Shown: in pieces, positions 1-61,400 of the stretch
Position numbering within the stretch: position 1 is the first letter of the stretch
How the letters are laid out: every line of letters starts with the position of its first letter
Assembly: GCF_030384665.1 (NCBI RefSeq)
Contig: NC_083677.1
Span: 1,423,501-1,487,500, forward strand
Direction of reading: 5' to 3'
From: Lodderomyces elongisporus
Lineage: Eukaryota > Ascomycota > Pichiomycetes > Serinales > Debaryomycetaceae
DNA: 64,000 bases
The notes under the pieces: generated by a model
The model's database searches: none
What the model was told of the DNA's origin: nothing
The model's input: only the letters and a program-made list of their open reading frames with translations
Position numbers and translations under genes: made by a program

Positions 1-157
1 GAAATGTTCTCATCAACGTTTGTAGCAAATGAATACCTTCAAATCCAAAAACCAAATATTGCGGGTTTTGTTCAGTTATTGTTGGGATATAATTATCTTT
101 CACGCCGTGCGGGTTACGAGTCGACGTCGACAATACATTGGGTAAAGTAAAAAGCAT
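1..157 (-). CDS. Possible gene fragment running off the left edge
   Basis: A minus-strand reading frame is open from about position 260 to the window edge, with its first in-frame ATG at 157-155, giving at least 52 residues before the edge. The predicted peptide has mixed, protein-like composition (for example NPHGVKDNYIPTITEQNP), unlike the low-complexity frames common in this genome's spacers. I do not recognise it. It could be the 5' part of a real gene lying to the left, a decayed retroelement reading frame in keeping with the surrounding sequence, or chance. An in-frame TGA lies further upstream, so the gene cannot start much earlier without an intron. Confidence 0.25.
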   Translation of the reverse strand, partial: MLFTLPNVLSTSTRNPHGVKDNYIPTITEQNPQYLVFGFEGIHLLQTLMRTF

Positions 158-297
158 TTCACCATCAACTAGCCGCGCGCCTGGGTCTGTTTGTTCGGAA
201 TTCGTCGACAAAATATCAAGACTTCGGTTAAAAACTCCCCTACTACTAAAAACGGAAAGTCAGCATCTCCAATATTCTAATAATTGAACGTCCTGTA

Positions 298-634
298 GAA
301 ACACTGAGGTTTCATAAAATAAGTTGGTTGTTCCTTTGGGATTCTGTCCCACGGTAGTTACCTTCTCCGTCGAAACACTGAGGTTTCATAAAATTTGTTG
401 GTTGTTCCTTTGGGCTTCTGTCCCACGGTAGTTACCTTCTCCGTCGTTTTTTGAAAGGTGTATCTTCTCACCCGAAACACTGAGGTTTCATAATAATAAT
501 TGGTTGCTTCTTTCGGGATGCAATTTTGTCTTTCTCTCAAGATGCTATAAAGTCTTTCTTGCGAGATGCAATTTAGTCTTTCCCTCGGTAGTTACCATCT
601 CCGCCGTTTTTATCTGGTGTAATTCTACCTCACC
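298..634. repeat. Degenerate tandem repeat with nested sub-repeats
   Basis: Three copies begin with the same 16-bp imperfect palindrome, gaaacactgaggtttc, at 298, 372 and 474. Copies one and two are a near-exact 74-bp tandem pair, each ending in ggtagttaccttctccgtc. The second and third copies extend further, through a gtttttt...ggtgta...ctcacc tail. The third copy also carries an internal triplication of a ~25-bp element (gatgcaattttgtctttc and variants) between about 515 and 590. Two small reading frames here are by-products of the repeats. Function unknown. Confidence 0.8.
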
Positions 635-845
635 GATAACCCGTGTAGTTTGTTTAGTCTGCTACCATCATACTCAGATGAGTCCGTAGACAGTAATGAT
701 GATTTCTTAAACGCTGCTTTAACGGTGCTTATTTACCTTCTAGAATGTAATAAGTCTTTTTTAAAAAAATGATATAAACCCAAATTAGGGATGTGGTCAT
801 TATCCTAAAAATACTTTCCTCGATCTTTGCACCAATTGAGGGTAG

Positions 846-1028
846 CCACTTATACCCGTGCAATCTTCGGTACTCGTTTCAACGCCATGCCTATCACACG
901 TACAGCCTTCAAACTATAGCCAAGTCAGCAGACACGACTCTATTCGGTCTATAGTTGCACTCTGTCTAACGTCTACAACCTTCGCCCTTTGTCAACTGAT
1001 GGGTGAATATTCCATCATAAAGTGTTGA
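846..1028 (+). pseudogene. Possible decayed Ty1/copia reverse-transcriptase fragment
   Basis: A plus-strand frame without stops runs about 60 codons (846-1025) but has no in-frame ATG at its start and ends in TGA at 1026. Its second half reads YSQVSRHDSIRSIVALCL and then a Gln-Leu-type pair. This resembles the segment of copia-type reverse transcriptases just before the first catalytic Asp block (pattern YSPV-R-DSIR ... AL ... QLDV). The Asp itself is absent and the following sequence has several stops, so any element here is dead. The resemblance is short and judged from memory of the family pattern; chance is a real alternative. Confidence 0.3.
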
Positions 1029-1749
1029 CAGTATACGCTATTTGATATTTTCTGGTGTAGTCTCGGATACGTCCCGATGACTACGATGCATTATGTTCCA
1101 TTGGACTAAACTCGCATAGTTCTCCAATGAGGAGTAGCTCCTCCTTTAAACTGTAGTTCACAATAGTGAAGCTATTAATTCGTGGATAGGAGATTTACTC
1201 TTCCACAGGTCCTTCTCATAAATGATATTGACCAAATGTTGAAATGCCAAGGTATTGAAATGTCATGATCATTCAATATCCTGGTCGACAATACTGCTTA
1301 ACAGTAGCCTCAACCAATGTATCAATTACTTGAAATATTAGGTAACCATATCAAATCATTCAAATAACATGATTTGCAAGGATTTGAGGTCCTCACTCTG
1401 GTCGCCATTCTGTCGCATAGCACTGTCACAAGTAACAAGTGTACGACTGCTGAGCATCGGTTTGAGCTGGTAGCTCACCGATACCAGCGGTTTGAGTTCG
1501 TGACTTGATAGGCTATATTCCAACTAAGTGTAATTGTCAATGATCGCACCTATAAAGGTCTCAATGCTCATAAGTTAAGAGAGTAAATTGTCTCATACAA
1601 AGTCACTAGTAAGGAGAATCGTGAGAGTATACACTCTGCACGTTCACCTAGTGATTTGTGTTCAATGTAGTTGACCGTATAAAATCTATATTTTACCGAT
1701 ATTTCTATATAATAGTGATAAGTTAATTTTACCACTTCTCGTTCCTATT

Positions 1750-1757
1750 TATATAAA
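1750..1757 (+). promoter_or_regulatory. TATA-type box upstream of BOR1
   Basis: TATATAAA at 1750-1757 lies about 310 bp before the BOR1 start codon. This distance is at the long end for a yeast TATA element but is acceptable if the 5' leader is long. It is the best match to the consensus in this promoter. Confidence 0.4.
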
Positions 1758-2066
1758 CTCATCTCGTTTGAAGTTTCAAGTTTCCCATGTCGTGCAATAT
1801 TCTCCAAATATTCACTTAGCGGAAACGAGGGCACAGAGCGTCCAGTGTGTGTCGCACTGTGACAATCTTCTTTCCTTCTTTCCTTTGTTTTTTTTTTCTG
1901 TATATATATTTAATTTTGCATTCCCGCTCCTCCCCTCCCACATATCTTATCTACTTGAAAGAAAGTTGAAGTGGACAAGTAGTTTATTCTACACCAGCCC
2001 ATAAGTAAGACATTAGCAAAAAAAAGAAAAAAAATCAAAAATCTGGAGCCACACTGCTTTGTTTTC

Positions 2067-3770
2067 ATGATGAAGAGGCTATCGTTTAAGCATTTCAACT
2101 ATTTTGGGTATGGTATCTATCATGATATCAAAACCAGACTCCCGTACTACAAGTCCGACTTTACTGATGCGTGGAACTATCGAGTCATCCCTTCGTCTAC
2201 ATTCATCTTTTTCGCCAACTTGCTTCCAGCAATCGCATTTGCCCAGGATATGTTCGATAAGACCAATAATGCCTATGGAGTGAATGAGGTTCTCATGTCC
2301 AGTGCATTTGGTGGAGTTGTATTTGGATTGTTCTCGGGCCAGCCTTTGTGCATCGTGGGCGTTACTGGTCCCATCTCAATCTTTAGTTACACCGTGTACG
2401 AGCTAATGACCCCACGAGGGACTCCATATTTTCCATTTATGTGTTGGATATATTTATGGAGTATGGTTTTCCATATTATAATTGCAGTAGGGAACTACAT
2501 CTCCTGGATGAGAATCATTAGTCTTTACTCGTGTGATATATTTGGGTTCTTTATCAACTTGGTCTATATCCAAAAGGGGATCCAGATCTTGCTGAACCAG
2601 TTTGACGATGTTAACTTGGCAAGTGGATACTGCTCGGTCATGATTGCTTTGTGTATGATCATTTGTGGTGTAGGATCAACCACATTTGGAAATTATCTCC
2701 ACTACTTTCGTCCCTGGGTCAGAAAAGTATTTGTCGATTATGGAGTAGTTGCATCGGTGATTTTCTTTACCGGGTTCATCCATTTTGGTGGGAAATTGAA
2801 CGATACAGAGCTTGCTCGATTACCAATAACCAAATCGTTTCAGCCAACTGAACATGGCGATATACGACCACACGGATGGTTTATTCATTTCTGGCCGGGC
2901 GAAAACATTGAGGTTGGAGACGTGTTTCTTGCCATTCCATTTGCCATTCTCCTTACTTTTCTTTTTTACTTTGACCACAATGTATCATCATTGATGTGCC
3001 AGTCCAAGGAGTACCCACTCAAGAAACCAGCATCGTTCCATTGGGATTTCCTCTTACTTGGACTCACAACAGGGTTTGCTGGAATTATGGGTATCCCTCC
3101 ACCAAATGGTCTTATCCCGCAAGCACCACTTCACACTGACTCTTTGGTTGTTTATGACCATAGCGGAAAGAAGCTTTCGGTGGTGGAACAAAGAGTCACC
3201 AATACAGTGCAAGGAATAATGACCTTTGTGATGATGTCGCGGCCGTTTCTAGTAATCTTGGGGCTTGTCCCTCAAGCAGTTCTTTCGGGTCTTTTCTTCA
3301 TCATGGCGATCTCGGGACTTCACGGCAATATCGTCACTAATAGAATTAGATACATTTTCTTGGATAAGCATTATATTGAAAACGATCCCAATTGTCCCCA
3401 GCTTTTCAGAGATATCCATGCTTTACCTACGAAGAAATGGTTTTACATATACGTTGTACTCGAAGTCATAGGTGGTGTTGCAGAGTTTGTAATTACCTTG
3501 ACCATTGCGGCAGTCGGATTCCCTGGTGTTCTATTATTTCTTGCATTTTGCGCCAAATGGATCTGGCCGTTGTTTATACCACGCGAAGAGCTAGATCGAT
3601 TGGATGGAGATGTGGCGGATGAGTTTATATTAAAAAACTTTACTGTGGCATCGGACGAGAAGAAAAGGAGGAAACAAAACGGGGTAGATGAAGAGAAAGC
3701 GCTGGAGAGTGAGATCGACGATGATGCAGAAGAGTATACAAGAGATGCAGCCATCAGTAGCAGCGAGTGA
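2067..3770 (+). CDS. BOR1: Borate/anion exchanger, SLC4 family
   Basis: This 567-residue polytopic membrane protein is close in length to budding-yeast Bor1. The family exports borate at the plasma membrane and has been linked to vacuolar protein sorting in yeast. SLC4-type features are visible: a short cytosolic N-terminus, the segment PLCIVGVTGPISIF around residues 92-105 in the transport core, roughly ten to twelve hydrophobic segments, the conserved GIPPPNGLIPQAPLHT stretch near residue 345, and a charged, acidic C-terminal tail. ATG codons at 2067 and 2070 are both possible starts; I take the first. There is no intron. The gene stands alone, convergent with the small secreted-protein gene to its right. 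Confidence 0.93.
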   Translation: MMKRLSFKHFNYFGYGIYHDIKTRLPYYKSDFTDAWNYRVIPSSTFIFFANLLPAIAFAQDMFDKTNNAYGVNEVLMSSAFGGVVFGLFSGQPLCIVGVTGPISIFSYTVYELMTPRGTPYFPFMCWIYLWSMVFHIIIAVGNYISWMRIISLYSCDIFGFFINLVYIQKGIQILLNQFDDVNLASGYCSVMIALCMIICGVGSTTFGNYLHYFRPWVRKVFVDYGVVASVIFFTGFIHFGGKLNDTELARLPITKSFQPTEHGDIRPHGWFIHFWPGENIEVGDVFLAIPFAILLTFLFYFDHNVSSLMCQSKEYPLKKPASFHWDFLLLGLTTGFAGIMGIPPPNGLIPQAPLHTDSLVVYDHSGKKLSVVEQRVTNTVQGIMTFVMMSRPFLVILGLVPQAVLSGLFFIMAISGLHGNIVTNRIRYIFLDKHYIENDPNCPQLFRDIHALPTKKWFYIYVVLEVIGGVAEFVITLTIAAVGFPGVLLFLAFCAKWIWPLFIPREELDRLDGDVADEFILKNFTVASDEKKRRKQNGVDEEKALESEIDDDAEEYTRDAAISSSE

Positions 3771-4478
3771 GTCTCTATACTTTACGTTTACTAAATTTTT
3801 TTTTTGTTTTCAATTCTTGTGTGCTATTGAGCAATTTTTGCACTTGTGCAATTGTGCCATCACAAGTGGGTGGCTGTGCATGTGGATGTACATCATAGGA
3901 CACACATCCATTTGAAAGTGTGATTTTATCTGTTTGCTTATATATATAATAATAATAATGATAATAATAATAAAAATAGATGTTTCTTTGTTGTGGGGTT
4001 GCGAATAAGTTTCAAAGAGAATACGGTTCTCAATGATTAGAAGTATAGTTTTGAAATTGCTCAATAGTATATACCATCTTACCCTCACGTGATCTAACTT
4101 GATAAACTTTTGAAAACCATTTTGTGTAATTGCAACATCTCGGCAAATTAACCCAGCACCCCTCTTCTTTTGGACTGTAACTAGATTTTTTAAAATCCCT
4201 AGTGAGCTTATTTTTCAAGTTACTTTATACACTTCTCCTTGGTCAAACAAGAAATAGATAAACAGCGAAATTTAGGATATGAAAAATATTTTATCAACAA
4301 AACATGGCATTAAGGTACTAAATCTATAAATTCACCTTGAATGATGGATATAAGAAAAGAAAAAAAGGAAAAAAAGGAAAAAAAGAAAAAAGGAAAAAAA
4401 GAAAAAACATAAAACAGAAAAAAAAGAAAAAACGCCCCCCTTGTAATAGCCCACATCTCTTTAACAAACAAACCTACC
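3771..4478. other. Convergent 3' spacer between BOR1 and a small secreted-protein gene
   Basis: About 700 bp of AT-rich sequence between two 3' ends. It contains an ATA/ATG trinucleotide run near 3940-3975, a palindromic TCACGTGA at 4085-4092, and long A-rich tracts (4355-4430) that would read as T-tracts for the minus-strand gene and may help 3' end formation. The reading frames here are short and low in complexity; none looks real. Confidence 0.6.
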
Positions 4479-4937
4479 CTAGAATGGTTTAGGCGCTGGA
4501 TGGGTTTCCGCGTATTCTCTTTCGATAGCACGAATAATCGCCACTTCGCCGGCCCAGGCTATTGCCGTTTGGTTTGGGAATAAGTAAAGCTCAGAAGCCA
4601 AGGTTGCATTAATGTGCAATATTTCCAAAACCTTATCGAAACCAGCTTTCCCTCTTGGGATGGTGTGGTTGAGGTACGAGTTGACAACACCATCCAAGTA
4701 TTCAAGCGGGATCCATGCTGGTAATGGGTACGTGTCTCTCTTGCCTGTTCCATATCTATACGAGGCAGTTCCTGTTTTGATTTCCCTCTTTGGAAGTGGC
4801 ACTGGTTTTGCCTCTTCTCTTTTGTCATGCAAACCAAAAATTATACTTCCATCAGTTTTGTTGGGGTAACCAAAAAAGATTGCATTCAACGTAGCAAAAA
4901 GAGTCGCAATTGCAAAAAACAATTGTACAAACTTCAT
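4479..4937 (-). CDS. Small secreted dibasic-processed precursor, single-unit member of a local family
   Basis: The 152-residue product begins with a signal peptide (residues 1 to about 19, MKFVQLFFAIATLFATLNA). Lys-Arg pairs follow at 39-40, 50-51 and 66-67, the classic Kex2 cleavage signature; they would cut the N-terminal third into short peptides of about 9-20 residues. The rest (68-152) aligns with the repeat unit of the two larger genes to the right: an IPL..L start, then a Phe-Asp pair, then IN-A-T-A-EL-L and a later QT. It carries an insertion of about seven residues and has no closing Lys-Arg. The N-glycosylation sequon at the NAT position is shared with the 426-residue paralogue. The function is unknown; I infer an extracellular role from the signal peptide. 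Confidence 0.7.
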   Translation of the reverse strand: MKFVQLFFAIATLFATLNAIFFGYPNKTDGSIIFGLHDKREEAKPVPLPKREIKTGTASYRYGTGKRDTYPLPAWIPLEYLDGVVNSYLNHTIPRGKAGFDKVLEILHINATLASELYLFPNQTAIAWAGEVAIIRAIEREYAETHPAPKPF

Positions 4938-6884
4938 GATGAACTATTGATTATTGATGCAAAGTAGATATTTGAGCAAAAAAGACAAAAAAGACAAAAA
5001 AGAAAACAAAAAGAAAACAAAAAGAAAAACCAATTGCCGTATGATTCTGGAATTGGTAAAACTTGTAATCTTAAACCTTGGACTTTTGAAGAAAAAGACT
5101 TATAAAAAAAATATTTTGATTGGAAGCAAAACTGAATTGTTTATATAGTTTTTTTTTTTTTTGGTAATCTGTCAATTCGGACAGAAGCCAAAAAAAAGGC
5201 AGTGTTTTAAGCCATTGTAACATAGTAAAAGATGCCCATTGCCCAAAGATTAGCATTATAACAATAAAGAAAGGGCAAAAAAAAAGCAAGAAAGGGTGGA
5301 GGAATAGAAGAGGAGGGGAGGAAAGAAGAAAGGGAGGTGAGACGAAAGGCGGATAATTTCTTAAGCAAGCAGAGTGCTGCAATGGTTTGTTCTTCACCTA
5401 CGTTAATACCGCAAATTTCCACTTATTTTGATTCTTATTCTTATTCTCAATTTTCTTATACTTGGTTATATGGGCTTTTCATTTTTGCTTTTGAAACAAT
5501 AAGCTCTGTGTTCATAACATGTGCAAACGAAAATGTACTTCTTTCGTTTAGCGACAAAGTTGTTTATCAGGGGGTTGAAAACCTTGCAAAAACAGCTGTG
5601 TGTATATAAAATTTTGAGAAATTCAGACAACAGCTTTTAATTGACACTATCTCATAATGGATCGAAAGAACGGTTAGAATTTTTTTTGTGTAAAAGGATT
5701 AAAACACATCCACAGTGTAATTAGTCTGGCACGTTATTGATCGACATTTTAATTCTTTCTTTCTTTGTTCTTTTTTTTTTTTTCCTTCTTTTTAGTTTTC
5801 GGTTAATTAAAACAGTGATTTGTGATGGTCTTATGGGAAATCAATTAGGTTTATCACTCGCTTTTCAATTCTGTCAACAATTTCAAGAGCTTCTGAATTC
5901 CAAAGTTTCAGAGACCAAGGATATATTTGTTCCCTTTGGTATTGCCGTGGCTTTAAGACAAAAACCAAAACGGGCTGAATTTCCAACGCTCAGAATTTAA
6001 TGATTTAAAAAAATAACTTCCCTTTGATATTCATGCATTGTGCTGATAGGCTCAGCTGAAAATTTTGCTTTCCTAATGAATAATTTTCATAGTTTCCACA
6101 TTTTTTTTCTCTTGGGTGTTGCTGCTAATGTTAATGATTATTGTTGATAGTTATTGTTAGGAACTATTGTTGATAGTTATTGTTAATGATTATCAATGTT
6201 AAGAAGAATATTATACTAGAAACCAGTCGACTATAATATACTATTCATAATAAAACAAAGGCAACCTGGTAAAATAAAGAAAAGAAAATGCAAGCAACGA
6301 ATGGAAAGGTTTCGAGCCATGAGAAAAAAAAAAACATGCAGCTTTTATGAGCGGACTTAGCAGTTAATGTTGGTTGTGATGTTTCACACAATAGTCGAAA
6401 GTCTAGACGTTGCAACTGTATAGACGACATGTATATATCTTTTCTTTCATTTTGCTTTCTTTCTTTCTGAAAAAATAATTGTTAAAGTTGAAAAAAATGA
6501 AGCTTTACTTTCTGCTTGTGATTTGGTTTCACTCAATTTCAGAATTCGTTATAGGAGTGCAGTCTTGATATATACTTGAAACGATCAAAGAAAAATATTG
6601 CGCTCAGAAATCTAGAATTCGCGCTCCTTATTTAAATCTACACTGTAAAGTAAATACGCACTTGACTCTTTATAGAAACAAATTTTGTATAAGGTATAAA
6701 TGGATAAGGATGGTATAAACGGTGTAAATACTAATAAAGACTAAAAGCAATGGACAAACATCGAGTAAACTAAAACATTTTTTTTTTTAATCTATCTTAT
6801 TCTGCTGGGACTTGGATTAAGTCAGATTCAAAAGAAAGAAAAAATAGTAAACAAAGATAGCAAAAAACAAACAAAATCATCTGA
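4938..6884. other. Long spacer between the first two precursor genes
   Basis: About 1.95 kb, probably the promoter of the 4479-4937 gene, with TATATAAA on the minus strand at 5140-5147 about 205 bp before its ATG. A direct repeat (attgttgatagttattgtta) occurs at 6140-6159 and 6166-6185. An island at about 5820-6000 has less skewed composition and is open on both strands (see separate entry). The rest is A/T tracts and short frames that I do not regard as genes. Confidence 0.55.
5833..6000 (+). CDS. Doubtful 55-codon ORF
   Basis: ATG at 5833 opens a 55-residue frame ending at 6000. Its composition is more protein-like than the neighbouring frames (it includes KDIFVPFGIAVALRQKPKR), but it matches nothing I recognise. 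The minus strand across the same bases is also open for about 50 codons, so this may be a decayed coding or mobile-element fragment rather than a gene. Confidence 0.15.
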   Translation: MGNQLGLSLAFQFCQQFQELLNSKVSETKDIFVPFGIAVALRQKPKRAEFPTLRI

Positions 6885-7985
6885 TTAGAGTAAACCATCG
6901 ACAGCATTACCAATTAAGCCAACCAATTGACTTACCAAAGCACCAAGACCGTCAACGGTACTGAGACCCAATGCACCAGCATCCGCAACAGTAATACCGA
7001 GGAAGGATAACAATGAGTCAACATCGCTGATTGTACCAGCAAGAACCAAGTCGACAGCCTTGATAATGGTGCCAAGTGGAACTTTGCTCAAGAGGTCTTC
7101 CAAACCTCTCTTACTCAAAAGACCGTCAGCAGTCTTACCAATTAAACCAACCAATTGACTTACCAAAGCACCAAGACCGTCAACGGTACTGAGACCCAAT
7201 GCACCAGCATCCGCAACAGTAATACCGAGGAAGGATAACAATGAGTCAACATCGCTGATTGTACCAGCAAGAACCAAGTCGACAGCTTTGATAATGGTGC
7301 CAAGTGGAACTTTACTCAAGAGGTCTTCTAAACCTCTCTTACTCAAAAGACCATCAACAGTTTGACCAATCAATCCAACCAACAGGCTCACCAAAGAACC
7401 TGCGCCATCAGCAGTACTGAGACCCAACTCTGCAACATCATCAAGAGTAAGATCCAAAAAGGTCAATAAATCATTAACAGTGCCAATGGTACCAGTAACA
7501 ACCAAACCAACAGCCTCAGATAATGCACCAAGGGGAATTTTCTTCAAGATGCTTTCTACATCTCTCTTACTTAAAAGACCGTCAACAGTTTGACCAATTA
7601 AGCCAACTAATTGACTGACCAAAGCGCCAAGACCGTCAACGGTACTGAGACCCAATGCACCAGCATCCGCAACAGTAATACCGAGGAAGGATAACAATGA
7701 GTCAACGTCACTGATTGTACCAGCAAGAACCAAGTCGACAGCCTTGATAATGGTGCCAAGTGGAACTTTGCTCAAGAGGTCTTCAGTACCCCTTTTGACA
7801 ATAGTATTTACTGAATCATCTGCAGCATCCTGACGTGCAACAAGTTTAGCGTCTACTTCAGTATTCAAATCCAAATTTCTAGCGGCCACGAGGGTTTTGC
7901 TAGTTTCGGGAGCAGCTGGAATAGCAGCAGCATTGGATGCAACAATGTAGGCAGCAGCAGCAATAAGAACGTTTGAGAATTTCAT
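6885..7985 (-). CDS. Secreted precursor with four Lys-Arg-bounded 76-residue repeats
   Basis: The product has 366 residues. It starts with a signal peptide (1 to about 20, MKFSNVLIAAAAYIVASNAA), then a pro-region to the first Lys-Arg at 64-65, then four units: 66-141, 142-217, 218-293 and 294-366. Each of the first three ends in LLSKR and the last stops at GLL, so Lys-Arg pairs at 64-65, 140-141, 216-217 and 292-293 would let Kex2 release four peptides of about 74 residues. Units are rich in Leu, Val, Ala, Gly and Ser, mildly acidic, with hydrophobic heptad-like spacing that suggests two amphipathic helices; they contain no cysteines. Units 1, 3 and 4 are nearly identical, while unit 2 has diverged. 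I do not recognise a characterised family and assign no activity; a surface-active, signalling or host-facing peptide are all possible. Confidence 0.85.
   Translation of the reverse strand: MKFSNVLIAAAAYIVASNAAAIPAAPETSKTLVAARNLDLNTEVDAKLVARQDAADDSVNTIVKRGTEDLLSKVPLGTIIKAVDLVLAGTISDVDSLLSFLGITVADAGALGLSTVDGLGALVSQLVGLIGQTVDGLLSKRDVESILKKIPLGALSEAVGLVVTGTIGTVNDLLTFLDLTLDDVAELGLSTADGAGSLVSLLVGLIGQTVDGLLSKRGLEDLLSKVPLGTIIKAVDLVLAGTISDVDSLLSFLGITVADAGALGLSTVDGLGALVSQLVGLIGKTADGLLSKRGLEDLLSKVPLGTIIKAVDLVLAGTISDVDSLLSFLGITVADAGALGLSTVDGLGALVSQLVGLIGNAVDGLL
6888..7790 (-). repeat. 228-bp in-frame tandem repeat, four copies
   Basis: Units in coding order lie at 7790-7563, 7562-7335, 7334-7107 and 7106-6888 (the last lacks the final three codons). 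Copies three and four share at least 140 identical bases (7147-7286 and 6919-7058), including synonymous positions, and copy one is nearly as close. Copy two differs throughout. This points to recent duplication or gene conversion that bypassed copy two. Confidence 0.9.
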
Positions 7986-9571
7986 TTTGGTTTTAATTTG
8001 TATAAATTACCTTTGATTTGAAACAGATAGGGGTTGATTTGAACTAAATAGATTTGATGTCAAAGTCAAAGTTGAAGTTTAGGGTATAAGCTGGATAAAG
8101 ATTTTGCTTGATTAATGTTTTTCTTCATTTCAAAAGAAGAACCATCAATTCAAAGGAAATATACTCCAGAATTTATACTTTTTTTTTTGTCAGAACTGAA
8201 CTAGGTCTTTTATTTATTTATTTTTATTTTTTTTTTGGAACAGAAGGTGCAAAATAAGCAAAGTAAGTAGGCCCTTTGGAAGCTGACAAATTCCATAGCT
8301 GACCCTTGCGTTACTACATGACTAGTGCAAAAATGGTATAGTTTACAAATAAGTGAATAAATAAAACAAAAGCACCAGCACCAGCAGAAAATATGAGGCG
8401 TCCGCAATGAATATCGAGTAGCGTTCTTTGTTTTTTTCTTCTTGTTCTTGCTTTTCATTGTTTCACTGTTTATATTGCTGAAAGACTGCTAAAGCATTCA
8501 TATCCATATATTAGTTCTTTTTTTTTTTTGTTTGACATCAAAAGATAGAATTGTGGTGGTTGCATTCATTTTGTGTATTCACTTTGTGATGATATTACAA
8601 AATCACTGTCAAGTAAAGACCCGCCCATTATTATACAGCTCGTTTTTTTGTTTTTTTTTTAGTGCTAGCAACCAAATTCAGCTATAAACAAATACAAACA
8701 CGTTTTCCCGAATTGGATTTGATGTCCTAAACCGGAGCAAGGAACAAAGGAATTGTACAAGAAATTGTTTTCCATGTTATCCATAGTTTTTGTCATTGTT
8801 GCCCGTTTCATTGTCCTTTCAAGTGGGAAAATGTCTTATCACCGTCGTTACGATTGAAAGTGGTAGCTGAAGCAAAAGCAGAATTGAGAGTGATTGAATT
8901 TGTACTTGTAGTAGTTGTTGTTTTGTTGTTCTTTCTGTTGTTGTTGTTGCTGATGATAACGAAAGCTATTGTTGAGCTTGCTTTACAAAGCTATTATATT
9001 ATTCACTAGCCAAAATTGCAGATCCCGATAACTGTGTAAAAAAAAAATCGGGAATTGATGAGTCCTTGCATAATTTTGTGCTATTTACTTTTGTGCAACC
9101 TGGAGAAAGCACATTTTAAGTTGGTCTGCACTAGATTTGCGTTCGTGGAAAAAAAACTAACCAAAGACAGGACACGACAAATTAACGAACGACAAAGAAT
9201 ATAATAATGATGGTGAATGTGGAGGTAGTAGTGGTGGTAGTGGTAGTGGTGTTGATGATGATCAGAATGATGGTGGCGTCTTGTTGCATCCTTAAAGCGG
9301 AATTAAGAAAGTAATCCATATAATCCACATTTCCACAACATAATTTCACATTTCCACTTTGTCATAGCCTTTCTCACCCACCTCTAATTTCTCAATCCAA
9401 ATATGCCACAGCGAAGTTGGCGAAAAAATTTCATGAAATTTTTGTGAGGGATTTAAACAAGAAACCAATATTGACTTTGAGATTTGGCATGATACAAATC
9501 TATGATAATGGCTATGAATTTGCGATTGTTAAAGTGTGTGTGATACTCATTGAAAGCAAGAAAAGAAGAAG

Positions 9572-9598
9572 AACAACAACAACAACAACAATAACAAT

Positions 9599-9678
<80 letters not shown>

Positions 9679-9832
9679 GAACAACAACAACAACAAGAAC
9701 AACAAGAACAACAAGAACAACAACCACCACAACCACCACCACCACAACTACTACCACCACCACAACAACAATCAAAGCTATCAAAACAATCACAACTACC
9801 ACCATTATAACCACCATTACCATCACCACCCA
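9572..9832. repeat. CAA/CCA trinucleotide microsatellite
   Basis: An uninterrupted CAA run of about 26 units (around 9599-9678) is flanked by imperfect CAA, AAG and CCA triplets. It opens long low-complexity frames on both strands (poly-Thr, poly-Cys, poly-Val, poly-Leu), none with other coding support. It is likely length-polymorphic between strains. Confidence 0.9.
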
Positions 9833-10445
9833 CAAGTATGGTTTGCCCAAGGTCTAAGTCGAAATTACCAATTCAACGTTTCTCGGTGGAAATAATGCAT
9901 TATTACTCTTTCTATGCTTTTTTATTTCGGACATAGTTATACTTGTTTTTGTAATCATAGATAAGCACTTATTGTTCTCTTTAGATTTACTGGTTTTTGT
10001 TTTTGAAAGATTTTTTTTTCCTTTGTTAGTTTTGCTCGTAAGTAATCTCACCCACCCACTGCTCTTTTTCTGTGGTTCTCTCCAATGTTGCGCCTCCACT
10101 AGCTTCCGATGTTTGTTTGTTTTTTATTTTGAAAAAGCTGGTAAACAATAGGACACCACAAGCTTTATTCAAAGCGCGAGTATAAACACAAAGCTTATAA
10201 GCCCATTTTTTAAGAACTCTAAGCCATACATGAGGATGTTGAGCAATAAGTTGTATTGGGGGATGTGTATCCTTGCCCATACCCTCGTGGTCTTGTTTCT
10301 ATTTACACCTCAGCCTGTGTCTTTGTCATGGTCAAGCGAATCAATATCCCAATTTCCAATATTTTTCTCGAGCCACTTTTCTCTCTCTCTCTCTCTCTCC
10401 GGAATCTCAACTTAACCAGCTTGACCATCTTTCCATATTTTCAAA

Positions 10446-10589
10446 ATGGATGCGAGATTAGATCTTGAACAAGTGCACGATGTGCGCAATTCTCTTATCA
10501 GTGAGATTGGAAAATTATTGGCAGCTACAAATCATTGCGTGATGACGCAAGACAACCTGCGTTGTCCTGTGAGATGGACTAAACAATAG
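10446..10589 (+). CDS. Doubtful 47-codon ORF
   Basis: ATG at 10446 in good context (caaaATGga) opens a 47-residue frame with a mixed, charged composition (it contains DLEQVHDVRNSLISEIGKLL), preceded by a CT-rich tract like those at yeast promoters. Two cysteines are present. I recognise no family and see no splice signals that would extend it. It could be a small gene, a decayed exon or chance. Confidence 0.25.
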   Translation: MDARLDLEQVHDVRNSLISEIGKLLAATNHCVMTQDNLRCPVRWTKQ

Positions 10590-10670
10590 TTGACATTGTT
10601 GACACATTTCTTTCGTCACCACACCAGAACAATAAATCCTAGAATTAGTCGAGGGCTAATAAGATAAGTG

Positions 10671-10790
10671 ATAACAAGTAATAACAAGTAATAACAAGTA
10701 ATAACAAGTAATAATAAATACTAGCAAATGATAACAAGTAATAACAAATGATAACAAGTACTAGCAAATGATAACAAGTAATAACAGACA
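10671..10790. repeat. Twelve-copy 10-bp tandem repeat
   Basis: The unit is ATAACAAGTA with variants (ATAACAAATG, CTAGCAAATG, ATAATAAATA), twelve copies in exact 10-bp register. The period is close to one helical turn, so any bound protein or bend would be repeated on one face of the DNA. It lies in the long spacer before the four-repeat precursor gene. Confidence 0.9.
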
Positions 10791-11581
10791 CTTTAAGTGA
10801 CAATAAGCGATAACGAATATTAATAATCGAAAATCTAATTGGCTGAAAGAACCCATACTTCACATATTCTTTAACCTAGTACTTGAAATTATCTTGATTT
10901 TTTCTCAAAACTCAAATGTACGCCATAGTAATATGAAAAAAAACAATAGATTGTAGTGTCATGTCAGTGAAAACAATACTGTAGTTTTTATTTAATGGTT
11001 GGAGGAAGCAAAGGCGAGGTGGGTAATTTGATGATAACATACCTTCTCTCTATCCTCCCTCTCTCTCTATCCGCCCTCTCTCTCTCTCTCTCCTCCCCCC
11101 CCTCACCACCAAAAAATTACAATAGCTAAGCCATTTTATGTATAATTGTTTTTTTTTTGTCTTTTTCAACTATTCTCAATTCTTCGGAGCCATATACACT
11201 CTGGTTTATTGAAAAGTGACCGGGCCCGGTTGATGAATTGCTAAGTTGTTCATACCGAAAGCTTACTTTTGTGGTGGTCTACTTAGACTTGTTTGCTAGT
11301 ATTTGCGAACTAGTCGTGTTTGGGCTAAACAGCGGAGACGTCACCAAAAGCGGAATTTTCAGTTTGTGTGAGAAAGGAGGCAGAAAATGCAATTACTTTT
11401 ACTTTTCTTTCCTTTTAGCCAGAGTAAAACATCCTTTTCGTATTGCAATGTATTGTATTTGCCATACCCACCAGTTGACTTCCCATAGTGGATTGCCCTG
11501 AGTCAGACAAAAAGGATTTGAAAATTAAAACATAAACTGAAATTCACTAGAAAAAAAGCAGATTCTAACAATAATGATAAT

Positions 11582-11613
<32 letters not shown>

Positions 11614-11770
11614 CAAATGAATATAAACGGGATAGAAGCAAATTTTTGCTTTCAGGGTATTCTAGGAAAGAAGACGAAAAAAACAAACAAAAAACAAAAA
11701 CAAAAAGCAGACTTGTGTTTACGATCAAAACTCAACAAACTTTGAGCTGTTTCAAAATAGCATACCTTTC

Positions 11771-13051
11771 TTAAGCATTCTTGAAACCATTCTCAATTGA
11801 TGTCTCAACAAGTTGAATCAACTGGTTGAGCAATTCCGAAATAGTTTGAGTAGCAAACAATCCCAACTTGTTTGCAACGGTGGGACTAATACCTAACCAG
11901 CTAATCAATTGGTCAAATGTCAAGATACCACCAGTAACAATAGCATTGACTGCAGCGGTCAATAAAGCAAGTGGAATTTGTGACAAGTCATCAGTTAAAG
12001 TGTCTCTCTTTGCTGACAGGAAACCGTTTTCAATTGCATCTTCAACAAGCTTGGCAACTTGATTTACCAAACCAGAAATGGTTTGCGTAGCTAACAAACC
12101 CAACTCGTTGGCTTCGGTGGCGTTGATACCCAAGAACCCCAACAAGTCATCAAAACCAGAAATTGCACCAGTGACTAAAAAGTGGAGTGCTTGGGTCAAC
12201 AACTCAAGTGGAATTTGCGACAAGTCATCGGTTAAAGTGTCTCTCTTTGCTGACAGGAAACCGTCTTCAATTGCATCCTCAACAAGCTTGACAACTTGAT
12301 TTACCAAACCAGAAATGGTTTGCGTAGCTAACAAACCCAACTCGTTGGCTTCAGTAGTATTGACTCCAAGGTATGAGATCAACTCATCAAAAGTGCTGAT
12401 ACCACCAGTAACCAACAAATTAAGAGCACCTGATAACACATCGAGTGGGATCTGTGACAAAGTTCCAATCAAGTCTCTCTTTGAATCAACTTTGGTGTCA
12501 GGTGCTAAGTCTCTCTTGGCTGACAGAAATCCATTTTCTATGGCCTGTTCAATGAGTTTAGCAATCAGATTAATTAATTCAGAAGTTGTTTCGGTAGCCA
12601 ACAAACCCAATTCGTTAGCAACAGTTGCATTGATTCCAAGAACGGATAACAATTCATCGTAGGCAGTGATACCTCCGGTAACCAACAAGTTAAGTGCGTC
12701 TGACAACAATGAGAGTGGAATCTGGGATAAGGTACTAATCAAGTCTCTTTGGACTATGGCATCAGCACCAGCATTGGCAGATTCTTCCCCAATAAATTCA
12801 CGGCGTTTCTTTTGGTCCAAAAGATTGGAAACCTCATTGGCCAACTGACCAGCAGTTTGGCCCTCGACTAAACCCAATTTAGCAGCAGTGGCCTCGGTGA
12901 CTCCCAAAACTTGAAGCAAGTTGGAGTAAGCAGCTCCCGAGATGACAACATCTTGAGCACCTGGCGCAAAACTTGCAGGGTTGATAGCAGCAGCGTTAGC
13001 AGAGACAGTGAATGTAGCAGCGACAACGGCAAAAACTTTGGTTAATCTCAT
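11771..13051 (-). CDS. Secreted precursor with four full and one partial dibasic-bounded repeats
   Basis: I start at the ATG at 13051, which gives 426 residues and a good signal peptide (MRLTKVFAVVAATFTVSANA); the 37 upstream in-frame codons begin at a non-ATG triplet and read as leader. Residues 38-84 look like a truncated repeat ending in KKRR. Full units follow at 103-180, 193-270, 271-349 and 350-426, each starting near LSQIPL and the first three ending in GFLSAKR. Kex2-type sites lie at 83-84, 179-180, 191-192, 269-270 and 348-349; a Gln-Arg at 101-102 is weaker. Units are 77-79 residues and share the scaffold of the 6885-7985 gene: IPL, TG-I, D-L, LG-A-LGL, QT or TVD, then a closing helix. 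Sequons (NAT or NTT) occur in units 1-3. Function unknown. Confidence 0.85.
   Translation of the reverse strand: MRLTKVFAVVAATFTVSANAAAINPASFAPGAQDVVISGAAYSNLLQVLGVTEATAAKLGLVEGQTAGQLANEVSNLLDQKKRREFIGEESANAGADAIVQRDLISTLSQIPLSLLSDALNLLVTGGITAYDELLSVLGINATVANELGLLATETTSELINLIAKLIEQAIENGFLSAKRDLAPDTKVDSKRDLIGTLSQIPLDVLSGALNLLVTGGISTFDELISYLGVNTTEANELGLLATQTISGLVNQVVKLVEDAIEDGFLSAKRDTLTDDLSQIPLELLTQALHFLVTGAISGFDDLLGFLGINATEANELGLLATQTISGLVNQVAKLVEDAIENGFLSAKRDTLTDDLSQIPLALLTAAVNAIVTGGILTFDQLISWLGISPTVANKLGLFATQTISELLNQLIQLVETSIENGFKNA
11774..12745 (-). repeat. In-frame tandem repeats of 231-237 bp
   Basis: Units in coding order are 12745-12512, 12475-12242, 12241-12005 and 12004-11774. A 36-bp linker coding for an extra dibasic site separates units one and two. 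Units two and three share long near-identical tracts at the DNA level, notably in the segment coding for EANELGLLATQTISGLVNQV. The outer units are more diverged, so homogenisation is less complete than in the neighbouring paralogue. Confidence 0.85.
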
Positions 13052-13201
13052 AGTTAAAAAAGTTTTTCGAGTTTGTTTTGGAATTGTTTTTTGGAGTGTT
13101 TGAAATTTAGAGTGTTTGGTTCTTTGTTGTTTTGTTTGTTGTTTTCTAGAAAGAGGATTCAAAACAAATCCAATTCAACTCAACTTGTGGACTTTGACCA
13201 C

Positions 13202-13209
13202 TATTTATA
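13202..13209 (-). promoter_or_regulatory. TATA box of the 426-residue precursor gene
   Basis: The minus strand reads TATAAATA here, a full match to the TATA consensus, about 150 bp before the ATG at 13051. The distance suits a yeast promoter and supports the downstream ATG as the true start. Confidence 0.6.
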
Positions 13210-16144
13210 CCATTCTGGAAACAAATTGAACTTTACAATTCTTTTTGTTTTTTTTTCATTTTCGAAACATGTGGTTCAAATGTTGTCCACCCTGAGTTTT
13301 CCATCAAAAGTTCGGTGTCAATTATGGTGTGATACGCTCAACACAAGAGCATTGTTTTTCTTTTCATTGATTTATAGAAAATTGTGGTTGGTAAACAACC
13401 ACCATTGCCACAATAGTCGTGAAAACGTGTGTCCATGCATTTATGCATGCATGTTCATATGCATGAACTATTGTCAATTTCACTACAAGCAAAAACTCCA
13501 TCAAGCACTTATTTCGTTTCGTTTCGTTTCGTTTCGTTATTCGCTTCTCTCTGTCTGTGCTTTTCATCATCTTTCTTCATTTCTAATGAATTCCCTTGAC
13601 GGTGAAACCGAGGTCGGAATCCGGAATTCGTGTTTCATGGTTGCTACTTCTCATTCTCTTTACAATAGAAGACAATGAAGAGAAATAGCTGTTGCGAATT
13701 ATGGGTCGTAGCATCGATGAGAAGTACAAAATGCAGTCTATTATTTTCTGCAGAGGATAATAATAATAGGTAAAAAAAAAAGGAATCAGAAGAACAATCA
13801 ACTAACCGATGCCAGTGTTACTACTGGGTTGAATTAGAAGCCAATATTTATGTTATTCGTGAATTTTTTTTTCGACCATGGTGAGCCACAAAATGTAGAA
13901 CTAAATGTTTTTTTTATTTTTCAAGTTTGGAGTACTAGTGAAAGGATGTTTGAAGAGGAAAGACATGATAAAAAAGAAAGAAAAAAAAAAGCAGAAGAAG
14001 AAGAAGAAGAAGAAGAACTTTAACCTTGAAACAACATATCATGAGTAGTGGCGAGGAAGCATGTGAATGTTTGTTCTTGGGTTCTATCGTTCATCCATTC
14101 CATTGATTTTTAGGGAAGAAGGGGGAATAAGTTTGAATGCAAAAAGCAGCTGAGTAAAACAAGTATTATATCGTCAATTGTCCTTTAGTGGCTTTAATCC
14201 TTTGGAATTTGCATTGTTTGGTTTCCACTGCATGCCAAATGAATAGAAAAAAGTGAGGGTTATGCGATGTTACATGAAATTGACGGGCCGAATTGAAACA
14301 ATATCACAGACATACAAACAGACACTTTTTCATTCTCTCTTTCTAGCTTTTCCTTCCTTTCCCTCCATTTTTTTTTCCACGCTTTCATTTCTCCTCTCAT
14401 ATATAACCACAGTCCACTATAATACGAAAAGTCACCTTAGAAAAACGGTTTTGAAGATCAGCGGGTCACCGTTTAGGTACGAGGTCGGCAAAATTATTGT
14501 TTGAAGTGGAGAGAAAAAGAAAAAGGAGAGTATAATTCGGCGAGCAGAGTGGAACATATGATACACAGGTTTGTCGACTTGATTGCAAAAGAAAAATATA
14601 TCTGGAAAAGATTATGAATTTTGGACTTTGGACTTTTTTTTTTGAATCTTAATTTTATTTGGAGATAAACGTTGTTGACTTTGAAGGATACAAATGCTTA
14701 CATGTTTGTCAAGTATCTTACACTTCATTATTTTCTTCTCCTCCTTCTTTTCCATTTCCTTTTCCTAACATTCGCTTTAAAGACAATGTTTCTTTTGACG
14801 CAAATTTTGAACTGCTCTTTCCCCTAGTCCTTCTATTGTCCTTCACTTTTCTCTCTTTCACTTTCTTTCTTTTAATTTGTTTAATTTTAATCCGCAAATT
14901 TCATTTCTTATCTCGCAAAAGCCATCACATGGATACATTGAGCAAATTTTGTCCTACTCGTTTTAAGAAAATTATACAATACAAGTGCCGAAAAGAATAA
15001 ATAAAAAAAAAACCAACATAATAGAGCAGAAGAAAAGGAAAAGTTGGAGAAACAGGAGAGGTTTCTAATTATACACAATTGGGTAAATAATCTTCCAAAA
15101 ACGACGTTAGTAAATGTGGCGGGCTTAAGGAATGGGTGTGGGATAGGTACTTATTATCATCATTTCTTTATTGTTTTTGCAAAAAGCCACAAAGTAAATG
15201 AACCTTTTGTCAATGTGAGTAATTGAGTCATTATTCAGCCAATGAGCAAAATAAAATACTTGCAAAGAAGGTGAAGTGGTTCGATCATATGCATAACCAC
15301 CACAACTACCACAACTACTACCACTACCACTACCACTACCACAACAACTACTGCCATTACTACAACTGTGTTTGCTATATTCCAAGCCTGCATTCAAGCC
15401 TGTTCTTTTGCGTGAAATAAACTAAAGGAAAACAAGAGCGACATTGTTTGGTACCCACAATGGTTTTTCTTTTCTCTTTACCTTTGAAGAACAATGCACC
15501 AGCATTAGCTGTGTGTACTTTTCCAAAAGGTAGGTGAAAGCATCGCTAAAATTATCTATTCCTGTCTCTTTTCCTCCTCTCTATTCTTCTTCGATTTTCC
15601 TCATCTCATTTCGTCTCATCTTTTTGCCCCCCCCCCCCCCCTTCCTCCTTGTCAGGTTTACTAAAATTCCTTCCAACTAAGCCCTCAACCATTACTGGGT
15701 TGCTCTTGTTTGTCTTGTTTGTGGTGCTTGTGTTGCTAATGCTTTTGTCGCCATTTCAAAATGCCTTAAAATAAAAGAGTACAGTTGTTCTTGTTTTCAA
15801 TTTATTTACTTATATGTTAATTAATTAATTAATTTATTATATCGCAAGGTCCTATCGTAATCGGCTATTACGGTGACCAACACACCCCACTGTTTTGCAG
15901 TCTACCGTCGTCTAAAGGCCCAGAACTTTTTAAAGATACGTTGTATTCATTAACAAAGCAAAAGCAAAAGATTGACAGATGCAAGGAAATTCTCTTACCA
16001 AAGCATCCATCTCAGCTTTGTTTCTTTATTTGTGAATTCCATTTTACTAGTCCTTTTGGAAACTGAGTAATCTTATCAAATCAAGTAGGATAATTAGCTG
16101 CATAAATTTCATGCACTCCGAGAACAATAACAGAAAAAAAAATA

Positions 16145-16211
16145 CCACAACCACAACCACAACCACAACCAGCACCATACCATACCATACCATACCATAC
16201 CATACCATACC
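16145..16211. repeat. CCACAA and CCATA minisatellites
   Basis: About four CCACAA hexamers (16145-16170) are followed by seven CCATA pentamers (16175-16211). Both are simple-sequence repeats in a non-coding spacer. Confidence 0.9.
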
Positions 16212-17129
16212 ACTTTAAATCAATATTTACGCCAATTCTCATCCTTGTTTGTCAAGTTGCATGATGCACGTTTCGGAATAAACGTCAAGACGAATCAAGA
16301 CACTCGTGTACCTCTTCCGCAACTCTACTGTACCTCTTCTGTACCTGCACATACGTATCTATCCTTTTGCAGGTAAAACATAAAACAGATAAAAACACAC
16401 AATATTGTTTCATCAATTTCAGTTTATAGACATCGAAAAAATAGGAAGAGGGTATTGATGGGATAGGAAAGCAAGGTTTCGAGGTAAAAAAAAAACAAAA
16501 ACTTTAGAATATACAAGTTTTGGGTCATTCACAGTGGAAACAATGGGACTACATTCCTCCAAAACCAATTAAACAAAAATTACAATAAGAGAAAGCTTCA
16601 CTATGAATTGAGCCCTTACGGTTCAAAGCCACCTCCTTCAATTACCCAAAAAAAAAAGCTTTCTCTTCATGTTTTGTTTTATTACTTTTTATTTTTTTGT
16701 CCTTCAATTCATTTCCCTCGTCGAATGCTTCTGTAGCTGCTCTGTTACTCCTGCCTATTGCTTCTACAATTGAGTCTAGTATAAGTGGTATTGTTGCAAG
16801 TGTGTGGAGGTGATTTTATCTTCCAGTTTATTTTTTTATTTCACACCCAAAAGTTTTGCACTTTCCAAATTGGTGCATTTTGCATTTTCTTTTCAACATT
16901 TGACACATTGCGAGTGTTCTTCTTCTTCATGCCGCTCGCCCTTAACCGCCGACTCTTCTTATCGCAGACTGGTTTATTGTTTACTCTGTAATTTGTTTTT
17001 TTCCTTTTTTTTTTTTTTTTTGCTCTTTTTTATTTTTTTATTTTTGTTTGAATTCAAGTAGATAGATACATCTCATCTAGAGCAATTTGAATCAACCATT
17101 CGTGAAAACAGCTTATGACATGATATGAC

Positions 17130-58446: not shown

Positions 58447-61400
58447 ATGATGCTTTGCCTTAAATTCTGGATATTGCTCTTGCTTGTTCCTTGGGCATGG
58501 GCAGTTGACATCACGAAAAATACGGTGCATAGGGGCCAGGTGGTTGTTGAACTAACCGGGGTCAGGATTGCATCTGGCGTATACTGGTCAATTGTTGACA
58601 ATTATCTATTGGAATTCTTGGGAAGCGTTCATGTCAACCCAGGTGGTGCACTTTATATCTCCAGTACTTCACGAATTTTTTCAATGAGAGTTCGTATGCT
58701 TGGAGCTGTATTCAGCATTCATAACGATGGAATTATCTCTTTGAATGCAATGTGGTCAATAGTGGCACCAGAGTACAAATTGTTAGGCAGCTCTTTTATC
58801 AATAATGGCGAATTCTATATGTCTGGGGATTCCACCTTGGGATCACCCGAATACGAAATTACATCATTGACCTGGACCAATAATGGGTTGATATACCTTT
58901 ATCAAAATCAATTCCTGAGCTCACTGGTATCCTTGGGTGCAACAGGCACAACAATCAATAATGCGGGCACCATATGCATCCGAAACGTACTTTACAGAAT
59001 AACAACTGGAGTAAAAGGTGTTGGTTGTATAGTGTTACAAAAGGCTGCTTCTTTCCAATTGCCCAATGCTCTCTTGGTGTTTGGAGCATTACAAAGCATT
59101 GTTATGGAGGACCCCGAGACATCTATAGTTGTTGAAGCTCTATCCACACCACAAACCTTTCGGGTTTACAATTATGGAAATGGAAATAGAATAGCATTAA
59201 CTGTTAGACTATTACCGAGTTTGCTTCATAGTGCATGGGAATACGATTCCAAAGCTGGTGTTGTAACATTAAGGACTTTGGCTTTACTGCAGAGATTCCA
59301 TATTGGTCTGGGCTATAACAATAATTTATTTGCAGTGGACAGTACTGGTCATGGTCTTGTGTACTCTGGCAGACCACCTAATGCTGGACGTCCGCCAAAT
59401 TGCCGTCCTTGCACTCACCCTCCAATGGGACCTGGATCGGAACCAACGGATTACGAAACTGCAATTGAGAGGACGGTGACTAGAACTCGCACCTCTGACT
59501 CTGTGACTACTACGGAAACGCGCGTAATTACCAGGTCGGCACATGTTTGGATTTCGACAAATAGTGATCAAAAATGGTTTACGTCTTCATCCATCCATCC
59601 TCGAGGTGATAGACCTGAAAAATCAACCACGTTTACTACAAGTTATCAAACTCTGGATGCTGACGGTGTGACATACGTTGAAAGTGCATTGGTAGCAGTG
59701 GGCACACACGAAAGAGGTGGCGGGCAAGAAGGAGGAGGAGGAGGAGGAGAAGAAGAGGAAGAAGAAGAATGGTTTACATCAAGTTCGCTTTATCCTCGGC
59801 ACTATATGACACGATACACCACAACCAATGCAATCGAAGGTCTGGACGATATTGTTGTAGTTGTCACTACTGATGAAAATCGTAAATGGACAACATCGTT
59901 GTCTACGATTGAGAGACATGTTACCCAGTATACGACGACTTTGGTTCACGTGAGCGAAGGAATTACAACTAGTAATGAAGTTGAAATTATAATCACTACT
60001 AACGAGGATGGAAGTTGGACGACTATAGAAAGTGATATTCAGGAAAGCTTTACTCAATACACCACCACTTTCCGCACTCTCATATCAGGAGACCCAACTG
60101 TGTTGGAGATGGAAGTATTGGTAACTACAAATCTGGAAGGTGGATGGTTTACAACTTCTCAGTCGATTGCTCCAACATTTAGAGAGGCAACTTTTACTTT
60201 GACTTCGGTAGAAAATGGATTAATTGATGTTCAGACTGTTGTGCATATGATTACAACCAATGCGGAAGGGTCGTGGACAACAATAGTGAAAGAGATTGAG
60301 CCAAGCACATCCGAATATCGAACAACGTATTTAACTACAAATGAAGAAGGCGAATTCGAAACTGTTGCTGCTGAGGTTAGAGTGTCAACCGATGAAAAAG
60401 GAGTGTGGGTAACTTCTACATATAAAGAGCAGTTTACCACTTTCACCACGGAGTTTGCATCCTTGAATACTAATGGCGTTTCAGAAACTGCTACCGCAGT
60501 TGTGATTGTGACAACAGATGAGGATGCGAAATGGTATACTACTACCTCAACCATTCCTCCTGTTCCACCAACTTACACTACGTTAATTCGTGAGTACAGC
60601 GGTGCTGAAACTACAACAGGTGTTTATGAAGCAGTCGTGAAGTCTAATGAGAATGGTATTTGGACAACGGAGTACAAACATATCGAAGAGCTCACCACCT
60701 TTAAAACGTTCCCAATTGTTGATGGGGAACGTCAAAGATTGCAAATTATTGTTAATACGGATGATAATGGGTCCAAATATACGTCTATTCAAGTGTTGGC
60801 TCCATATTTTACATCGTATACCACAGTTTTGACCGGAAGTAATGAAACTGCAACTGCCGTTATAATAAGGTCGATAGACTCTAATAGAAAGTTGTACAAC
60901 TCAACCTTAATCCAAACCACACCCACTTTTGCACATTACACCACGTTGTACGAGTCTTTGGATGAAAATGGACATATGGATAAATTTGTTGGGGAAATTT
61001 TTGTCACCACTGATGAGAACAGCAGCTGGACCACTATCACAAAACAGTTGCAAGAGTCTCACACCGGTTTTACTTTAGCAATACAAACCACTGATTTTGA
61101 TGGGAATACTGTTACTGAACAATACTCCATTTTAGTGACACAAAATCTTATTGGTGGCAACTGGTTTACAGGAATCTATGAAATGTGGAATGTGGAGCAA
61201 ACAAGGACTGCTATCGAGACAACGGCTGATGCGATATATACTGCTACTGAATCCGTGCTGAATGCACCATCAGAGTCTACAGAGTCTACAGAGCCAACAG
61301 AGTTTACTGAATCTATCGAATCTACTGAATACGTTGAGTCTACTGAGTCTACTGAATCTATTGAGCCTATTCAATCTACACAGCCTACTGAGTCTACTGA

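Follow-up and report, generated by a model that had tools for sequence, protein, structure and literature searches.

Candidate Kex2-processed repeat precursors with predicted folded units in the yeast Lodderomyces elongisporus

Introduction

What do three neighbouring yeast genes produce when each encodes a hydrophobic leader followed by related segments bounded by Lys-Arg (KR) pairs? The genes, here called A, B and C, lie on the minus strand of a 64,000-nucleotide stretch of the Lodderomyces elongisporus genome (contig 5, NC_083677.1, positions 1423501-1487500; hereafter the window) and were read with genetic code 12. As judged from sequence, they belong to a real multi-locus family that combines the known layout of Kex2-processed repeat proteins (KEPs) with an unusually long unit of predicted fold. 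In the reading preferred here, Kex2 would release these units as small folded proteins that serve in bulk at the cell surface or in the matrix. The two parts taken together are given a probability of roughly 0.4; the release of folded mini-proteins by Kex2, taken by itself, appears probable.

In Candida albicans, kex2 mutants show defects in surface properties, morphology and virulence, and several Kex2 substrates are described without an assigned function (PMC2515848, PMC6258133). L. elongisporus has itself been isolated as an agent of disease in humans (PMC10586162). If the units were released as folded mini-proteins and not as short peptides, repeat precursors of yeasts could be seen as polyprotein factories for small domains. 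The family in L. elongisporus offers a compact and testable set: its five genes carry clear candidate cut sites, and the predicted fold of a unit is fair.

Three Precursors with Related Units

An earlier note on the window had proposed three minus-strand genes encoding secreted precursors. An open reading frame (ORF) check confirmed their coordinates and strand (Table 1), and A, B and C proved open under code 12 over 152, 366 and 426 amino acids (aa), with zero, one and four CTG codons, respectively. Splitting at KR gave the same unit counts as proposed, namely one in A, four in B and four plus one partial in C. The description of the units as KR-bounded paralogues was likewise borne out by this splitting, by unit z scores and by profile ranking. 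Other details applied more narrowly. The unit length of 76-79 residues holds for B1-B3 and C1-C4, and A1 has 85 residues and B4 has 73; the LGL step of the shared scaffold recurs in the other units, its place being taken by ELYLF in the unit of gene A. In gene A, two short KR-bounded pieces of 11 and 16 aa stand ahead of the unit. A hydrophobic stretch near the N-terminus was found by hydropathy alone in all five proteins of the family, including the two paralogues described below (best 10-residue hydropathy 1.89-2.71), and the precursors are likely secreted.

Candidate Cut Sites and a Kex2-Type Protease

The KR pairs are far more frequent than composition would predict. Compared with shuffled sequences, B carries four pairs where 0.26 are expected, C five against 0.23 and paralogue D five against 0.78; in B and in C, none of 20,000 shuffles reached the observed count. 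Their placement is also regular, with spacings of 76, 76 and 76 in B and of 94 four times in D. None of the 18 pairs in the family falls inside a unit (two belong to the pro-region of gene A), and KR stands at every one of the 10 unit-to-unit borders of B, C and D.

The residue that follows KR is Asp or Glu at 14 of the 18 sites, against a background of 11% (P 1e-10), and the bias persists when duplicate contexts are removed (10 of 13, P 6e-8). With Gly included, the count rises to 17 of 18, the exception being a KKRR-E site in C, at which cleavage after RR would again leave Glu. Acidic or small residues are described as over-represented at the P1', P2' and P4' positions of Kex2 cut sites (Bader et al., 2008; PMC2515848), and the putative P1' pattern of the family fits this published preference. 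A search of the genome for the Kex2-type P-domain returned a single match (E 5.6e-22). The open frame concerned carries the motifs GTSAA and DDG, the former of which we take to be the serine motif of a Kex2-type protease. By these features, L. elongisporus encodes a protease of this type.

A Multi-Locus Family

The earlier note had described a family of three genes; all three stand, and the genome adds more. A six-frame search of the genome (16,086,460 bases in 8 contigs) identified two further paralogues, D and E, on other contigs. Since six-frame searches yield lower bounds, the family is counted as at least five genes, three of them in the window. Its precursors carry one to five units, with unit lengths of approximately 73-94 residues. 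D and E contain one CTG codon each. In paralogue E, the region between leader and unit holds two hydrophobic stretches rich in Trp, Phe and Gly, which are joined by a linker rich in Thr, Ala and Ser; the second stretch ends in GKR. These two stretches are possibly separate peptides.

Kinship among the units was assessed by z scores for 45 pairs of 10 units, most of which were strongly related. For example, the unit of gene A scored 13.6 against C1, 12.3 against C3, 9.0 against C4 and 16.5 against E, and B1 against C3 scored 14.6. Direct comparison of A1 with B1 and B2 gave no significant score (z 1.0 and 0.1), so A is tied to B through other members only. The N-terminal partial units of C and D were each other's best match. 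In addition, a profile built from the eight B and C units was run against 1,095 stop-to-stop frames, drawn from the window together with three fetched stretches, and only C, B, D, E and A scored above the inclusion line. Gene A scored modestly (14.9 bits, E 0.0014), compared with 5.0 bits for the best unrelated frame.

No Pfam model passed its cut-off for A, B, C or E. For D, three mutually unrelated models passed as whole-protein sums, and no single stretch was significant; these passes are explicable because five near-identical repeats can sum their scores. Scans of prokaryote and viral contigs with protein P0003 as the query gave 265 and 42 pattern matches, respectively, and no confirmed relative, which is a weak negative for a yeast family. 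Among the open-licence papers returned by literature searches and judged by title or the opening of the abstract, none dealt with the family.

Table 1. Positions of the family genes, their units and associated features (window coordinates unless a contig or fetched stretch is named).
Feature	Position	Strand	Description	Basis
Gene A	4479..4937	minus	152 aa; leader followed by two short KR-bounded pieces and a family unit; final copy in the tandem array of six	
Unit A1	4482..4736	minus	85 aa, after third KR	KR splitting, unit comparison
Gene B	6885..7985	minus	366-aa precursor, four units	ORF, KR splitting
Unit B1	7563..7790	minus	76 aa, KR end	KR splitting
Unit B2	7335..7562	minus	76 aa, KR end; most divergent of B; internal KK	KR splitting
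Unit B3	7107..7334	minus	76 aa, KR end	KR splitting
Unit B4	6888..7106	minus	73 aa, C-terminal, without KR	KR splitting
Gene C	11771..13051	minus	426-aa precursor, N-terminal partial and four units	ORF, KR splitting
Partial unit Cn	12803..12955	minus	KKR end	Closest to N-terminal partial of gene D, z 18.7
Unit C1	12512..12745	minus	78 aa, KR end; N-terminal border a single Arg	KR splitting
Spacer in C	12476..12511	minus	12 aa, KR on either side	KR splitting
Unit C2	12242..12475	minus	78 aa, KR end	KR splitting
Unit C3	12005..12241	minus	79 aa, KR end; unit used for folding	KR splitting
Unit C4	11774..12004	minus	77 aa, C-terminal, without KR	KR splitting
Paralogue D	contig 3, 1590418-1592058		546 aa, five units, 94-aa period	Genome search
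Paralogue E	contig 4, 492874-493491		205 aa; a single KR, followed by one unit	Genome search
Tandem array	contig 5, ~1387981-1429822		6 x ~6,983 bp with HCO3_cotransp-type transporter gene and gene A; window 1..6322 is its last part	
Upstream of B	7986-11770			
Upstream of C	13052-17129			
Upstream stretch	L020, 1327-4696		L020 holds E at 4874-5491	
Upstream stretch	L019, 1-5417			

Predicted Fold and Chemistry of the Unit

The earlier note had suggested structure prediction of single units. Unit C3, modelled with a 10-row window alignment (C3 and nine other rows), gave a compact all-helical bundle with a mean predicted local distance difference test score (pLDDT) of 82.4 and a predicted template modelling score of 0.72. 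Helices were placed at residues 3-7, 12-24, 30-37, 41-46 and 55-78. Residues 1-7 and 77-79, next to the KR junctions, had pLDDT below 50 and were predicted to be disordered; the unit ends beside KR would therefore be accessible. The predicted unit is a bundle of helices that lacks cysteine and has disordered ends beside KR. No convincing match was obtained among PDB sequences or folds, the best structural matches being weak.

In the two units analysed, the long last helix was amphipathic relative to shuffles (C3, P 0.0002; B1, P 0.0006). Cysteine is absent from A-D, and the single cysteine of E lies upstream of its unit. Net charge without KR ranged from -2 to -10 in the 11 units measured, and the grand average of hydropathy ranged from -0.43 in the hydrophilic E1 to 1.15 in the hydrophobic B4. 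Ala, Gly, Ile, Leu and Val together make up 49-67% of the B and C units. An N-glycosylation sequon occupies a common place in the alignment of A1, C1, C2, C3 and D1 and is absent from B1-B4, C4 and E1. By hydropathy, none of the five proteins has a clear hydrophobic C-terminal tail of the glycosylphosphatidylinositol (GPI) type.

Evolution of the Units

Rates of nonsynonymous (dN) and synonymous (dS) substitution were estimated by the Nei-Gojobori method. Three of the B units are close to one another (dN/dS pairs of 0.026/0.237 for B1-B3, 0.046/0.207 for B1-B4 and 0.037/0.148 for B3-B4), and B2 is further from the rest (dN 0.29-0.33, dS 0.93-1.23). Units 1-4 of D show no amino-acid difference in their six pairs over 76 codons and at most four synonymous codon differences, and unit 5 has three amino-acid differences (dN 0.022 and dS 0.14-0.20 against D1-D4). 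The C units have dN of 0.17-0.32 and dS from 0.6 to saturation; C2-C3 gave 0.169/0.635, and the other five pairs had dS of at least 1.5 or saturated. Within genes, dN is much lower than dS wherever the latter allows an estimate, and the units are under purifying selection.

The earlier note had also suggested that the family expanded in tandem. A tree of 14 rows, which included two of the five D units, recovered a clade of the B units and a clade of the two D units, each with ultrafast bootstrap (UFBoot) support of 98. Expansion inside the gene is therefore supported for B and D. The C units were not separated from B with support (34-74).

Proposed Mechanism and Its Weak Points

The proposed pathway would begin with a precursor of one to five units, likely secreted by way of its leader. 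Kex2 in the Golgi would then cut the KR linkers and free small helical-bundle proteins, from which the remaining KR may be trimmed by a Kex1-type enzyme. The released mini-proteins might finally coat the cell surface or the matrix. Output may be tuned by dosage, copy number having been raised at two levels. Units are amplified within precursors, with five near-identical in D and three near-identical plus one in B, and the gene itself is amplified in the case of A, with six copies. Such a two-level increase would suit a bulk product, such as a structural or surface-active coat, better than a trace signal.

Several observations weigh against this proposal. Nothing specific favours a coat over a toxin, a signal or a partner protein, and cleavage and secretion are predictions from sequence. 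The signal peptides assigned by the earlier note correspond in A, B and C to hydrophobic, secreted-type leaders as judged by hydropathy. Since A and E hold a single unit apiece, the family does not depend on repetition. C1 begins after a single Arg (VQR-D) and not after KR, and the KR-to-KR piece that contains it measures 97 aa; the KR layout of C is therefore not as regular as that of B and D. Acidic residues at P2' (2 of 18 sites) and P4' (3 of 18) do not stand out, and in vitro one third of the selected proteins stayed uncut by Kex2 (Bader et al., 2008; PMC2515848). With respect to the fold, helix 3-7 of the C3 model falls in a stretch with pLDDT below 50, and the whole precursor of gene C, folded alone, reached a pLDDT of 43.9. 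Finally, the eight pairs of B and C units that were compared had dN of 0.66-0.75 and dS of 1.0-2.5, and sequence constraint between these genes is weak or unmeasurable.

Comparison with Known Systems

KEPs are recognized by a leader and related segments separated by KR, and their motifs are reported to span 3-352 aa (Le Marquer, 2019, PMC6339444; Umemura, 2020, PMC7329392). B, C and D each have at least three related segments split by KR, RR or KK, as the repeat rule of that class asks, and A and E do not. Repeats cover 301 of 366 aa in B and 312 of 426 aa in C, against a threshold of 15% of the protein. By layout and repeat rules, B, C and D can be placed in the KEP class, from whose described members they differ in that the unit is a predicted folded domain. 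Saccharomycetes are reported to average 1.35 KEPs per strain, most of them annotated as alpha-factor (Umemura, 2020; PMC7329392).

In Rep1 of Ustilago maydis, ten conserved repeats lie between Kex2 sites, and the product has a structural role in aerial hyphae (PMC2515848). At its end, Rep1 carries a longer fragment that differs from the repeats; in B, C and D, the last piece is a family unit. The C. albicans polypeptide precursors Ece1 and CA0365 are said in the same source to resemble Rep1 in layout without homology (PMC2515848). In another example, the propeptide of C. albicans Ywp1 is a Kex2-dependent, N-glycosylated piece of approximately 11 kDa from a secreted protein (PMC6258133). Unlike A-D, it has two cysteines in a disulfide, and Ywp1 has a GPI-anchored core (PMC6258133). 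Kinship with this propeptide was considered and dropped, as A-D lack cysteine, E has one and a clear hydrophobic C-terminal tail was not seen.

Alternative Explanations

The family might not be new and might instead belong with the Op4-like proteins of C. albicans, Kex2 substrates connected with cell-type switching, mating and vesicles. This is possible, if doubtful, and is compatible with a surface role; among known groups, the Op4-like proteins would be its likeliest home. The set comprises CaOps4, CA2974, CA6162, CA1873 and CaPga17, described without an assigned function; Kex2 cuts such proteins in vitro, and they come under regulation in white-opaque switching and in mating (PMC2515848). 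The family shares with them the standing of secreted Kex2 substrates of the CTG clade without assigned function, here by prediction. Op4 of C. parapsilosis has been called rich in Ala, Leu and Ser, in keeping with the composition of the B and C units, and Op4 is listed for vesicles of both C. parapsilosis and C. tropicalis (PMC7408413); a tabulation of vesicle proteins from C. albicans includes it as well (PMC9241596). Taken alone, the likeness in composition is weak. Moreover, a clear GPI-type tail is missing from the five proteins, whereas the Op4-like set includes Pga17, presumably named as a putative GPI-anchored protein. A potential GPI site likewise appears among the published schematics of the Op4-like proteins (PMC2515848).

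It is unlikely that the units are antagonistic or membrane-active peptides that, like the product of Ece1, act against competing microbes or host cells. The family does share with Ece1 a leader followed by several KR-bounded pieces, B and C are hydrophobic in composition and the last helix is amphipathic. The published cytolysin of Ece1, candidalysin, is however a peptide of 31 residues (PMC5784256). No amphipathic helical peptide of about that length lies between KR sites in the family, whose units of 73-94 aa are acidic and of which one is predicted to form a compact bundle. The short KR-bounded pieces, of 11 and 16 aa in A and of 12 aa in C, do not look hydrophobic on inspection. C. parapsilosis has been reported to be without an Ece1 orthologue (PMC8787473).

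Less likely than either of these is that the precursors remain whole and work as secreted or wall proteins with several domains, with KR as linker residues, an option that we regard as improbable. Cleavage of the family is a prediction, some proteins with good sites stay uncut (PMC2515848) and the unit is predicted to fold as a domain. Against this stand the retention of KR at every border in B, C and D while several C pairs are synonymously saturated, the acidic or Gly residue at P1' of 17 of the 18 sites and the predicted disorder of the unit ends beside KR. Signalling to a receptor of the same species is also less likely than the first two readings and is very improbable, since the KR repeat layout is shared with alpha-factor precursors but ascomycete alpha pheromones measure 9-24 residues (PMC6339444), far below the units, and no alpha-factor Pfam model appeared up to E = 1 for A, B, C, D or E.

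With release of folded mini-proteins to the surface or matrix as the preferred reading, a bolder version may be formulated, which we consider rather unlikely. The family would then be new, and possibly a new small fold, in which cysteine-free, acidic helical-bundle mini-proteins are made as strings severed by Kex2 and tuned in output at two levels. They would form an extracellular coat or matrix in a CTG-clade yeast and fill the niche held elsewhere by Op4-like proteins, Ece1 or Rep1.

The Tandem Array of Gene A

The six copies of gene A are identical in protein sequence (100%) and follow one another at intervals of 6,983 bp, except for a single interval of 7,021. Each segment of the array also encodes a 567-aa HCO3_cotransp protein, which we take to be a Bor1-type boron transporter. 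Of the five neighbouring pairs, three have no indel in their alignment and show 8, 2 and 0 differences across 6.9 kb. In the other two, an indel breaks the register, and 1-kb bins away from it are 0.999-1.0 identical. The amplification looks recent. Published reads average 13 kb, with reads above 20 kb used for assembly (PMC10586162), and the exact number of six rests on the assembler because reads are likely shorter than the 42-kb array. The presence of six copies of gene A beside a transporter gene makes dosage effects testable.

Upstream Regions and Other Features of the Window

Upstream of B, C, D and E lie stretches of approximately 3.4 to 5.4 kb without a clear gene. In the two fetched stretches (L019 and L020), no ATG-started ORF of at least 120 aa was found, which leaves room for introns or short genes; those in the window hold only a low-complexity pair of 122 and 103 aa and one ORF of 132 aa. 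Such long, gene-poor stretches suggest complex regulation. The stretch upstream of gene C holds 23 copies of the motif TGCAT/ATGCA where 8.9 would be expected, with a maximum of 20 in 300 order-1 resamples, and the motif is not enriched upstream of B (6 against 10.8 expected). TGCAT is, on our assumption, linked to Efg1. A Wor1-like motif was not enriched, with no occurrence in the five upstream regions and one each in two of six other intergenic stretches.

Within the stretch upstream of B, positions 9417-9857 contain a long AAC repeat (66.7 copies, 9572-9771) that is open in several frames (poly-Thr, poly-Cys and poly-Val) and looks like low-complexity sequence and not a gene. Near the far end of the window, at 61262-62041, a CTG-rich repeat ORF with 42 CTG codons lies opposite a minus-strand repeat ORF of the DSVDS type, and either strand may code.

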